Below, piece after piece: positions 4,479 through 29,791 of a stretch of 64,000 nucleotides of DNA (position 1 is the first letter of the stretch; each line of letters starts with the position of its first letter). A model generated the notes under the pieces. The model had not been told where the DNA came from. It saw only the letters and a program-made list of their open reading frames with translations, and ran no database searches. Source of the DNA: Blattabacterium cuenoti (GTDB lineage Bacteria; Bacteroidota; Bacteroidia; Flavobacteriales; Blattabacteriaceae). The DNA is taken from contig NZ_CP059210.1 of assembly GCF_014252095.1 (NCBI RefSeq), positions 410,392 through 474,391 on the forward strand, in the 5' to 3' direction. The translations under genes were made by a program, and so were the position numbers.

Positions 4479-4604
4479 TTTTATAATTTTAACCGTAATA
4501 TAAGATTTTTTCAAAGAAAAATTTAATATAGTGACTTTTTGTCATATAAGAACTCAATTTCTTTGTTAATGCAAAAGCTTATTCTTGTCATAGATTCTAG
4601 AACT

Positions 4605-4621
4605 TCATTATGGCATAATGA
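4605..4621. promoter_or_regulatory. Inverted repeat upstream of dnaK (candidate operator)
   Basis: TCATTATGGCATAATGA is a perfect 8-1-8 inverted repeat in the rplM/dnaK intergenic region, 45 bp before the dnaK ATG. The same CATTATGRCATAATG core occurs ahead of miaB (24226-24240) and a related one ahead of groES (27705-27719). I saw no other intergenic copy in the window. It does not match CIRCE (TTAGCACTC-N9-GAGTGCTAA). Function is inferred from position and recurrence only. Confidence 0.6.
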
Positions 4622-4626
4622 TTGGA
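4611..4626 (+). promoter_or_regulatory. Possible sigma-54-type promoter of dnaK
   Basis: TGGCATAATGATTGGA fits the sigma-54 pattern TGGCAY-N5-TTGCW at every fixed position except one: the -12 GC reads GG. The GG-to-GG spacing is correct and the element ends 40 bp before the ATG. I found no TAnnTTTG box in this gap on the plus strand. It overlaps the inverted repeat at 4605-4621, so part of the match may be a by-product of that repeat. Confidence 0.35.
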
Positions 4627-24206: not shown

Positions 24207-24225
24207 AATTGCAAGGATAATTTTC

Positions 24226-24240
24226 CATTATGACATAATG
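24226..24240. promoter_or_regulatory. Inverted repeat upstream of miaB (candidate operator)
   Basis: CATTATG-A-CATAATG, a perfect 7-1-7 inverted repeat in the pncB/miaB gap. It differs from the dnaK repeat only at the central base over 15 positions. Its right arm ends 26 bp before the predicted miaB -7 box, so it would lie at or just upstream of the -33 region. Confidence 0.6.
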
Positions 24241-24266
24241 ACATTTTATTTTTTTACCTTTATTTA

Positions 24267-24282: not shown

Positions 24283-25668
24283 ATGAAAAAAAATTTTTTG
24301 ACCACCTTAAAAATTCCATTATTCTATTACATAGAAAGTTATGGTTGTCAGATGAATATTTCTGATACTGAAATAATCATTTCAATCCTATCAAAAAATG
24401 GATTTTTATTAACAAATAATTTAAAAAAAGCTCATATTATCCTACTCAATACATGTGCCATACGTAAAAAAGCAGAAATATCTATTAAAAATAGATTAGA
24501 TCACCTAAGATATTTAAAATCAAAAAATCAAAAAATTCCATTATTTGGTATTCTTGGATGTTTATCAACATCAATTGAATATTCAAACTTGATAGATTTT
24601 TCTATAGGTCCAAATTCTTACAGAAAAATACCTGATATCATTCGATTAGTTATGATGAATGATGAAAAAAAAATAAATCACATTCTATTATCTGAAAATA
24701 AAAATGAAACATATGAAAATATTAGTCCTTCTCCATATAAAAAAAAAATAACTACTTTTTTAAGTATAACAAGAGGATGTGATAATATGTGTACGTTTTG
24801 CATAGTTCCTTTTACAAGAGGAAGAGAAAGAAGCAGTAATCCATACTCAATAATTAAAGAATGTGAAAATTTATACGAAAAGGGATATAAAGAAGTAACT
24901 CTATTAGGTCAAAATGTAGATTCTTATCTTTGGTTTGGAGGTGGTTTTAAAAAACAGATAAAAATAAATAAGAATAATGAAAAAATAATTGATTTTTCAA
25001 AGCTATTGGATTTAATAGCTTCAAAGCTACCCTTTATGCGAATTAGGTTTTCAACATCTAATCCTCATGATATGTCTGATAGAGTAATAGAAGTTATTTC
25101 AAAACATTCTAACATATGTAAACACATTCATTTACCAGTTCAATCAGGAAGTAATAAAATATTAAAATTAATGAATAGAAAATATACTCGAGAAAAATAT
25201 ATTTCTCTAATACAGAAAATTAGATCTATAATTCCTGAATGTTCTATTTCACATGATATGATAACAGGTTTTTGTCATGAGGAAGAAGAGGACCATTTAG
25301 AAACTATTAGCTTAATGAATGAAGTAAAATATGATTATGGTTACATGTTTTCTTATTCTCCTAGGCCTAGAACCTATGCCTATAAAAAATTAAAAGATAA
25401 TGTTCCAGAACATGTGAAAAAAAGGAGATTAAAAGAAATTATTGATTTGCAAAGAATTCATTCTATTTTTCGAATAAAAAAATATTTGGGAACAATACAA
25501 GAAGTTTTAATAGAAGGAGAATCTAAAAAAAACAATCAAGATTGGTATGGACGAAATACACAAAATTTTGTGGTAGTTTTTCCAAAAAAACTCTCTAAAA
25601 TAGGAGAATCCGTTTTTGTAAGAATCATTGATTATACATCCGCTACATTAATAGGAAAATTAGAATGA
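24283..25668 (+). CDS. miaB: tRNA-2-methylthio-N6-dimethylallyladenosine synthase MiaB
   Basis: Radical-SAM enzyme adding the 2-methylthio group to i6A37 of tRNAs, after MiaA has prenylated the base. 461 residues from the ATG at 24283; an in-frame ATG at 24238 falls inside the upstream inverted repeat. Seen: 'YIESYGCQMNISDTE' with the first cluster Cys22, 'LNTCAIRKKAE', radical-SAM 'RGCDNMCTFCIVPFTRGRE', 'LLGQNVDSY', 'HLPVQSGSN' and a C-terminal TRAM domain. MiaA, which must act first, is frameshifted in this window. Heads the operon miaB-regulator-lptE-secG-groESL. Confidence 0.96.
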   Translation: MKKNFLTTLKIPLFYYIESYGCQMNISDTEIIISILSKNGFLLTNNLKKAHIILLNTCAIRKKAEISIKNRLDHLRYLKSKNQKIPLFGILGCLSTSIEYSNLIDFSIGPNSYRKIPDIIRLVMMNDEKKINHILLSENKNETYENISPSPYKKKITTFLSITRGCDNMCTFCIVPFTRGRERSSNPYSIIKECENLYEKGYKEVTLLGQNVDSYLWFGGGFKKQIKINKNNEKIIDFSKLLDLIASKLPFMRIRFSTSNPHDMSDRVIEVISKHSNICKHIHLPVQSGSNKILKLMNRKYTREKYISLIQKIRSIIPECSISHDMITGFCHEEEEDHLETISLMNEVKYDYGYMFSYSPRPRTYAYKKLKDNVPEHVKKRRLKEIIDLQRIHSIFRIKKYLGTIQEVLIEGESKKNNQDWYGRNTQNFVVVFPKKLSKIGESVFVRIIDYTSATLIGKLE

Positions 25669-25695
25669 AAATCAATAATAAAATCTATTCCATAC

Positions 25696-26988
25696 ATGGA
25701 ATCCATTCACAATATAAAACAAAAATTTAGTATTGTTGGAAATGATTACGCTCTGCATAGAGCATTGGAAAAGGCGGTTCAAGTGGCACCTACAGATATT
25801 TCTGTATTGGTCCTTGGAGAAAGTGGAGTAGGAAAAGAATTTATTCCAAAAATTATTCATCAATTTTCTTATAGAAAACATCATTCTTATATTGCTGTAA
25901 ATTGTGGAGCTATTCCAGAAGGAACAATTGATAGCGAATTATTTGGCCATGAAAAAGGATCTTTTACGGGGGCTACAAGTATGCGTAAGGGATATTTTGA
26001 AGGGGCAGATGGAGGGACTATTTTTTTAGATGAAGTAGGAGAGCTACCTTTAACTACACAAATTCGTCTTCTTAGAGTTTTAGAATCAGGTGAATTTATT
26101 AAAGTAGGGTCTTCTCAAATACAAAAAACTAATATCCGCATTGTGGCTGCTACTAATTTGAATATGATAGAATCTATTCAAAAAGGAAAATTTAGAGAAG
26201 ATTTATATTATCGTCTAAATACTGTACAAATTAGTGTACCTCCTTTACGGTTTCGTAAGAACGATATTAGATTATTGTTTAAAAAATTTTCTAATGATTT
26301 TGCTGAAAAATATCATATGCCTCCAATAAAACTTACTGAAGAAGCTTTCAAGTATTTAGAAAATTATTCTTGGCCTGGAAATATTAGACAGTTAAAAAAC
26401 TTCATAGAACAAGTATCTGTACTTGAAAAAAAACGTGAAATTTCTATAGAAAAATTAAAAGAATATATTCCAGAAAATATTCCTTCTTTATCTATTTCTA
26501 ATTCAAATAACGAAAAATTTTTTCATAATTTTTCAAATGAAAGAGATTTTCTTTATAAAATTTTATTTGATATGAGAAAAAATTTGAATAATTTGAAAAA
26601 ATTAACCTATCAATTGATAAAAAGTCAAAACGATACTAAAAAAAATTTCTTAGAAAAGAATCAACAACTTATGGAAAAAGTTTTTGGAAATATGATTAAT
26701 AGTTCTAATTACTCTGTAAAATCTATAGTCGAAGACTCCATATTTAGATTAGAACATGCTTCTAATTTATCGAAAAATCCGTTAAAAAATGAGAATTTTG
26801 ATTATGAAGAAATAGAAGAAGATTCTATCAATACAAACGAACTAAATACTTTTTCCTTGCAAAAAAAAGAAATAGAATTTATTCAAAAAGCTCTAAAAAA
26901 AAATAATGGAAAAAGAAGAAAAACAGCTAAAGAATTAGGAATTTCAGAAAGAACATTATATAGAAAAATCAAACAATATGGTCTATAG
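25696..26988 (+). CDS. Sigma-54-dependent transcriptional regulator (NtrC family, no receiver domain)
   Basis: AAA+ enhancer-binding protein that remodels sigma-54 RNA polymerase. 430 residues beginning directly with the AAA+ domain: Walker A 'GESGVGKE' at 41-48, the sigma-54 contact loop 'GSFTGA' at 88-93, Walker B 'GGTIFLDEVGEL' near 106-117, 'FREDLYYRLN' and 'WPGNIRQLKN'. A middle helical, Lys/Asn-rich linker follows; the C-terminus is a Fis-type helix-turn-helix ('RKTAKELGISERTLYRKIKQ'). No sensory domain, so activity may be constitutive or set by level. rpoN is not in this window. Same position in free-living flavobacteria. Confidence 0.95.
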   Translation: MESIHNIKQKFSIVGNDYALHRALEKAVQVAPTDISVLVLGESGVGKEFIPKIIHQFSYRKHHSYIAVNCGAIPEGTIDSELFGHEKGSFTGATSMRKGYFEGADGGTIFLDEVGELPLTTQIRLLRVLESGEFIKVGSSQIQKTNIRIVAATNLNMIESIQKGKFREDLYYRLNTVQISVPPLRFRKNDIRLLFKKFSNDFAEKYHMPPIKLTEEAFKYLENYSWPGNIRQLKNFIEQVSVLEKKREISIEKLKEYIPENIPSLSISNSNNEKFFHNFSNERDFLYKILFDMRKNLNNLKKLTYQLIKSQNDTKKNFLEKNQQLMEKVFGNMINSSNYSVKSIVEDSIFRLEHASNLSKNPLKNENFDYEEIEEDSINTNELNTFSLQKKEIEFIQKALKKNNGKRRKTAKELGISERTLYRKIKQYGL

Positions 26989-27451
26989 AAAAATTTTGAT
27001 TTTTTTTATTACTGGTTTAACTGTATTTTATAATCATATTTATTCCTTCAATAGAAAAAAAACAATAGAACTTGGAAATTTTTCGGAAGAAATAAATATT
27101 CCAGGAATATCTATTTCTTTTGAAATAAAAAAAAAATTAGAAGATTATATCCTTTTACATAATCCTTCAAGTTTAGTTTTAAACAATGGAGATCTTCTTT
27201 TAGAAGGAATATTTACTAATTATAAAATATTTTCAATGAAAAATTATCCATTGAAAATAATTGAAATAAAAGCAAAAATTTTTTTTAAAGACAATTCTAA
27301 TCCAGAGAAAAATTGGACTCAAAATTTTGAAATTTTAGAAAAAATTTCTCGTGATGAACTTTTTTTTATGGATAATTCTTCTATAATAGATAGAATTACA
27401 AAAAATTTTGTCATCAAATTATATAACAGAATATTTAATAATAATTGGTAA
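26978..27451 (+). CDS. lptE: LptE-like LPS-assembly protein
   Basis: In relatives the protein at this site is the LptE-type lipoprotein that partners LptD in exporting LPS to the outer leaflet. 157 residues: one N-terminal hydrophobic segment (about residues 5-22) followed by 'IYSFNRKKTIELGNFSEEIN', close to the 'GCGIYSF' start of flavobacterial LptE, and then a mixed alpha/beta domain with 'LLLEGIFTNYKI'. Odd: there is no Cys in the signal, so the lipobox has been lost. Overlaps the regulator by 11 bp. Assignment rests on position and weak motif similarity. Confidence 0.7.
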   Translation: MVYRKILIFFITGLTVFYNHIYSFNRKKTIELGNFSEEINIPGISISFEIKKKLEDYILLHNPSSLVLNNGDLLLEGIFTNYKIFSMKNYPLKIIEIKAKIFFKDNSNPEKNWTQNFEILEKISRDELFFMDNSSIIDRITKNFVIKLYNRIFNNNW

Positions 27452-27462
27452 AAAAAAAGCTA

Positions 27463-27702
27463 ATGTATTCAACCATACTTCTTGGATTTTTTATTATTTT
27501 AACATGTTTGTTTCTTATTGGAATCATTTTAATCCAAAACCCTAAAAAAGGATTTATTTCTCAATCTTTCATGGAAAAAAATTTTAGATTTTTTGGAATA
27601 AAAAGAACTAATATTTTTTTGGAAAAAATAACTTGGATCTTATCTATTATTGTCTTTTTTTTAACTTTATTTTTCAATTTTTTGTTAAACTGTAAACAGT
27701 AA
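27463..27702 (+). CDS. secG: Preprotein translocase subunit SecG
   Basis: Small accessory subunit of the SecYEG channel. 79 residues from the ATG at 27463; a TTG at 27445 in frame overlaps lptE and adds only a basic leader. Two membrane helices (about residues 3-23 and 52-73) separated by 'ILIQNPKKGFISQSF', the conserved loop. It is the last gene before the groESL regulatory gap. Confidence 0.9.
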   Translation: MYSTILLGFFIILTCLFLIGIILIQNPKKGFISQSFMEKNFRFFGIKRTNIFLEKITWILSIIVFFLTLFFNFLLNCKQ

Positions 27703-27704
27703 AT

Positions 27705-27719
27705 ATGCCATTATGGCAT
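27705..27719. promoter_or_regulatory. Inverted repeat between secG and groES (candidate operator)
   Basis: ATGCCAT-T-ATGGCAT is a perfect 7-1-7 inverted repeat starting 3 bp after secG and 99 bp before the groES ATG. It shares the 11-mer CATTATGGCAT with the dnaK repeat. It could be a binding site for the nearby regulator, or a secG terminator stem, although no T-run follows. Confidence 0.5.
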
Positions 27720-27760
27720 TAAATTTTATATAGACGTAAAAAATTCAAATTTTTTTTATT

Positions 27761-27776
27761 TGGCATGTTTTTGGCT
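27761..27776 (+). promoter_or_regulatory. Possible sigma-54-type promoter of groESL
   Basis: TGGCATGTTTTTGGCT has the invariant sigma-54 GG-N10-GC arrangement and TGGCAT at the -24 element; the only departure from TGGCAY-N5-TTGCW is G for T in the -12 element. The GC lies 43-44 bp before the groES ATG, close to the spacing of the similar element before dnaK. No TAnnTTTG box is visible in this gap. Confidence 0.45.
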
Positions 27777-27780
27777 CTGT

Positions 27781-27796
27781 AACGATAAGTATCGTT
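27781..27796. promoter_or_regulatory. Inverted repeat in the groES leader
   Basis: AACGATA-AG-TATCGTT, a 7-2-7 inverted repeat directly after the sigma-54-like element and 22 bp before the ATG. It could be an operator overlapping the start of transcription or a 5' hairpin in the mRNA. Confidence 0.45.
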
Positions 27797-27818
27797 AACC
27801 TTAAAAATTATTTTAAAT

Positions 27819-28097
27819 ATGGTTGAAGTAAAGATTAAACCTTTAGCAGATCGCGTTTTAGTGAAACCTGATCCTGCTGAAACAAAAACATCTTCAGGTA
27901 TTATCATTCCTGATACCGCAAAAGAAAAACCACAAAAAGGTACTATAATAGCAGTTGGAAATGGAAAAAAAAATGAACCTATGATCTTAAAAAAAGGAGA
28001 TAGAGTTTTATATGGAAAATATTCAGGAACTGAACTAAAATGGGATGAGGAAGAATATCTTGTTATGAGAGAGTCTGATGTTATAGCTATTATATAA
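27819..28097 (+). CDS. groES: Co-chaperonin GroES (Hsp10)
   Basis: Lid of the GroEL folding chamber. 92 residues. Seen: '[17 protein letters not shown]', the mobile loop '[11 protein letters not shown]', '[11 protein letters not shown]', '[13 protein letters not shown]' and the ending '[13 protein letters not shown]'. Followed by groEL after 53 bp. Preceded by a 116-bp non-coding stretch with two inverted repeats and a sigma-54-like element, which suggests a separate promoter inside the miaB operon. Confidence 0.98.
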
Positions 28098-28108
28098 TTT
28101 TAGGATAA

Positions 28109-29791
<1,683 letters not shown>

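Follow-up and report, generated by a model that had tools for sequence, protein, structure and literature searches.

A conserved sigma-54-type promoter before groES-groEL in Blattabacterium cuenoti and its probable control by a neighbouring activator

Control of chaperone genes by sigma-54 is already known and has been mapped in a free-living flavobacterium: in Flavobacterium psychrophilum, mapped transcription starts with a sigma-54 motif lie before groES-groEL, lon, dnaK, grpE-dnaJ, htpG and clpB, and mutation at another operon belonging to the same regulon confirmed the motif (PMC9723704). This regulon (SM4) also takes in gliding and other genes, and three PF00158 proteins are predicted in that organism (PMC9723704). 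A 2025 in silico survey gives groES, groEL, dnaK, dnaJ and grpE as enriched sigma-54 targets, most of them in Flavobacteriia (PMC12316311); these are class-level statistics on the same chaperone targets as those described below, and the available part neither names an activator nor deals with reduced symbionts. The initial annotation of the present locus had called sigma-54 control of groESL unusual, but such control, mapped in F. psychrophilum and predicted to be enriched in the phylum, is the rule in Bacteroidota. Bradyrhizobium japonicum reportedly has a NifA/sigma-54-controlled groESL operon as well, groESL3; that operon is one of several groESL copies and is tied to nitrogen fixation, whereas groES is present as a single copy in the genome described here.

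The window, that is, the whole stretch of 64,000 nucleotides analysed here, comprises bases 410392-474391 of the single-contig genome of B. cuenoti (630,985 bp). The groES region was compared across 49 species, with one genome per species (the congeners, 48 in number, being of approximately 600 kb each), and the statistics on column identity, the palindrome and the inverted repeat were obtained from the 47 species that could be anchored. The regions upstream of grpE-dnaJ and dnaK were read in 10 species and that of htpG in nine. Relatives in the family were represented by six genomes with rpoN from five other genera (G064, G215, G218, G230, G231 and G232) and by 13 genomes without rpoN from three genera, and the wider Bacteroidota by 80 loci retrieved with the activator, groES being present in 58 of them. 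The features of the groES region, in window coordinates, are as follows.

25696-26988, forward strand: sigma-54 activator with an AAA+ domain, a Fis-type HTH and a GSFTGA loop, without a sensory domain (Pfam, architecture)
26978-27451, forward strand: small protein at the lptE position (reading frame; named from gene order only, with no match in Pfam or NCBIfam models)
27445-27702, forward strand: secG (PF03840, TIGR00810)
27706-27718, no strand: palindrome TGCCATTATGGCA, candidate enhancer (activator binding site)
27760-27776, forward strand: predicted -24/-12 sigma-54 promoter of groES-groEL, TTGGCATGTTTTTGGCT
27781-27796, no strand: inverted repeat AACGATA-AG-TATCGTT at the predicted start
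27819-28097, forward strand: groES (PF00166)
28151-29791, forward strand: groEL (reading frame, 546 aa, GroEL sequence)

The activator gene does lie three genes upstream of groES on the same strand, as had been claimed, with the lptE-like gene and secG between them, all on the forward strand, and it is intact in 49/49 species. No other protein of the genome matches PF00158 strongly; three weaker matches (E values from 1e-9 to 2e-5) appear, by score and size, to be other AAA+ proteins. Like the PspF-type activators, the activator joins an AAA+ domain to a Fis-type HTH and lacks a regulatory domain at its N terminus, and its AAA+ domain is similar to PspF chains; unlike PspF, it falls under the cut-off of the NCBIfam PspF equivalog (279 bits against 443.55), has a longer linker and would have other targets. 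The GSFTGA form of the sigma-contacting loop was considered as a possible defect and this was rejected, because 20 of the 79 readable Bacteroidota orthologues share it, the other 59 having GAFTGA. The rpoN gene, the presence of which the initial annotation had left to be checked, is present and intact in the genome, where RpoN has its activator-interacting, core-binding and DNA-binding domains (Pfam), and it is intact in all 49 species.

The GG-N10-GC element placed by the annotation approximately 43 bp before the groES ATG was confirmed: in TTGGCATGTTTTTGGCT the GG lies at 27762-27763 and the GC at 27774-27775, and the ATG, at 27819, is 43 bases downstream. A pattern search found one exact match to TGGCAYNNNNNTKGCW in the 631 kb genome, close to the number that we estimate from base composition (about 0.6), and the rarity of the motif was therefore dropped as evidence; scans of the window allowing one and two mismatches gave matches mostly within genes. 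It is the conservation of the motif, and not its sequence alone, that far exceeds chance. GG-N10-GC is kept, in the form TGGYA-N8-GC, in 48/49 species, TGGCATGTTTTTGGC is identical in 45 and an 18-mer in 43. The motif columns are 96-100% identical in the 47 anchored species, compared with mostly 35-80% in the flanks (the upstream A/T tracts excepted), and the groES gap varies in both sequence and length among the 49 species while the motif stays. The GG and GC positions do not vary freely among relatives and, with rpoN intact, the proposal of a sigma-54 promoter for groESL beside its own activator gene is supported.

We consider it very probable that RpoN reads 27760-27776 as the -24/-12 promoter of groES-groEL, with the neighbouring activator as its switch, and that this control is shared with other chaperone genes. 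RNA polymerase carrying RpoN would read the promoter, a hexamer of the activator would bind the TGTCA/TGACA-type palindrome at 27706-27718 through its Fis-type HTH, and the GSFTGA loop would contact RpoN, with ATP hydrolysis opening the promoter and transcription of groES starting near 27787. Besides groES-groEL, the same activator would serve dnaK, grpE-dnaJ and possibly htpG. RpoN would thus govern a small set of chaperone genes, a legacy of free-living flavobacteria, and the inducer of this set may be protein-folding stress.

Were the housekeeping sigma factor, or read-through from the activator-lptE-secG operon, the main source of groESL transcripts, the motif would be only a minor or relict promoter. 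We regard this as improbable, even though three species in which the motif is lost or weakened retain groESL and groES is still present in the genera without rpoN; a near-perfect motif in all but one of 49 AT-rich, drifting genomes is unlike a relict, and the gap itself lacks a TAnnTTTG box, as the annotation had observed (none was found from 25030 to 28116, both strands searched), with no sigma-70-type match on the forward strand of the secG-groES interval. In the three species concerned, the motif is gone (G009, L050) or weakened (G015, L030; G019, L037), and each has kept rpoN, the activator and the dnaK site intact, so that groESL can evidently be expressed without the motif. A loss of rpoN or of the activator, expected where the groES motif had decayed, was thus not borne out in these species. 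The chaperone regulon that we attribute to RpoN seems to erode piece by piece.

The initial annotation overlooked the palindrome at 27706-27718, which is the conserved second element. It precedes the -24 element by 42 bp, and most sisters read TGTCATWATGACA at this position. The strict form is found in 38/47 species, against 0.06 expected from shuffles, and the remaining nine have related half-sites with their order or spacing changed. TGCCATTATGGCA is probably the enhancer of the activator; that the encoded activator binds it we infer by elimination, because this is the sole activator present and the same site stands before other chaperone genes. The palindrome might instead be a remnant of the secG terminator. 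In favour of this, the copy in the window can fold into a hairpin of six pairs with a weak T-rich tail behind it, and in free-living relatives (L095-L161) the interval from secG to the groES promoter holds a hairpin resembling a terminator, AATGCCAGC...GCTGGCATTTTTT, whose loop contains TGACA. We think such an origin unlikely: the same palindrome occurs before grpE, far from secG, in Blattabacterium and in many Flavobacteriales, and the TGTCATWATGACA of most sisters differs from the TGCCAGC stem of the terminator. In the free-living relatives, terminator and enhancer half-site may overlap, and the palindrome in the window could serve in both roles; it may also be partly descended from a terminator but, as it recurs before grpE, such descent is not the whole account.

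The inverted repeat AACGATA-AG-TATCGTT was correctly reported at 27781-27796 but does not generally belong to the element, as it is perfect in only 6/47 species (about one expected) and otherwise at chance level; it was ruled out as a general operator for this reason, and is probably incidental. Because the predicted start lies inside the repeat, no leader hairpin could form if that start is right, and a search of Rfam gave no credible family nearby. The overlap with the predicted start would suit a repressor of the HrcA/CIRCE type acting on groESL at this repeat, yet the repeat is not generally conserved, HrcA is missing from 68/68 family genomes in a search that detected its controls, and no CIRCE was found within the window, all of which makes such a repressor extremely improbable.

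Sites of the same kind as those assigned here to RpoN and the activator occur before other chaperone genes. In the window, the region upstream of dnaK contains the following.

4531-4545, no strand: palindrome GTGACTTTTTGTCAT, candidate dnaK enhancer (sequence reading)
4585-4593: further half-site TTGTCATAG upstream of dnaK, listed with palindrome GTGACTTTTTGTCAT
4611-4625, forward strand: -24/-12-like element before dnaK, TGGCATAATGATTGG

The dnaK arrangement, a TGACTTTTTGTCA palindrome with TGGCATAATGATTG, is conserved in 10/10 species read, its -12 element being without the C. The grpE-dnaJ genes are preceded by TGTCATAATGACA and TGGCAAATCTTTTGCT in seven of the 10 species read, and htpG by a weak TGGTAYRATNTTTG site in four of nine; no convincing site was seen upstream of lon, clpB or rpoN. 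A relaxed scan of the whole genome with TGGYAW-N5-TTG gave 23 matches, against 11 with a reversed control pattern, and those before grpE, htpG and dnaK were the only ones lying outside long reading frames and facing a gene. As this pattern misses other forms of the -12 element, that of groES itself among them, more targets are possible. Sites before groES-groEL, dnaK and grpE-dnaJ, as in the flavobacterial sigma-54 chaperone regulon, are all found here.

Conservation extends beyond the genus. In the six relatives with rpoN, which also keep the activator, a site is found before dnaK in all six, before groES in four and before grpE in three; at groES, G231 has the -24 half only and G232 has none, and the grpE site of G064 has a changed -24. 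In G231 (L205) the activator ends directly 5' of the groES gap, lptE and secG being gone from between them. The 13 genomes of the three other genera have neither rpoN nor the activator, and no site was found in those of their upstream regions that were read (groES in 11, dnaK in three, grpE in five). The DnaK tree is compatible with one to three losses of rpoN in the family, and the co-loss of proteins and sites may therefore rest on few events. In one of the rpoN-less genomes (G217:C3:181526-182084), htpG is present only as fragments with many stops, as if decaying.

In the Bacteroidota at large, groES lies mostly about 2 kb downstream of the activator in the 58 (of 80) loci that hold it, and by reading all 58 have TGGCA and the G at -12, the C of the GC often being replaced. 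The stricter pattern TGGCAY-N6-[TG]G was found before groES in 42 loci, compared with 0.36 in shuffles, and a grpE site in 27/29 loci, compared with 1.0 expected. Throughout Flavobacteriales, the gene order activator-lptE-secG-groES is kept, as is GG-N10-G.

The regulon proposed here is therefore like SM4 of F. psychrophilum in having sigma-54 promoters before groES-groEL, dnaK, grpE-dnaJ and perhaps htpG (PMC9723704); it differs in having one activator, in the lack of a visible site at lon and clpB, and in that an enhancer and its activator are proposed. Our literature search found no sigma-54 chaperone study of Blattabacterium and, as far as that search goes, three things are new: the enhancer, the activator, proposed because gene order is conserved and losses coincide, and the connection with the keeping of rpoN in reduced symbionts. 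That Blattabacterium and two scale-insect symbionts retain RpoN has been described as unusual among insect endosymbionts, with a tentative tie to nitrogen use suggested for one of them (PMC3971599); the present comparison points instead to chaperone control as the reason for retaining rpoN in shrunken symbionts. With the activator and its binding site named, this explanation can be tested, and the family, which is without HrcA, gains a candidate chaperone stress regulator. More tentatively, and as a conjecture that we find plausible rather than probable, RpoN may be kept solely for the chaperone regulon in symbionts of ~260-640 kb, with one sensor-less activator standing in for RpoH or HrcA as a general regulator of protein stress in the Bacteroidota and sensing stress through a partner, perhaps the chaperones.

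A further enhancer-like repeat, TTCCATTATGACATAATGACA, lies at window positions 24223-24243, just 5' of miaB, which heads the gene run containing the activator. Sites resembling it occur in about half of 11 readable sister genomes, without a -24/-12 element, and autoregulation of the activator is possible.
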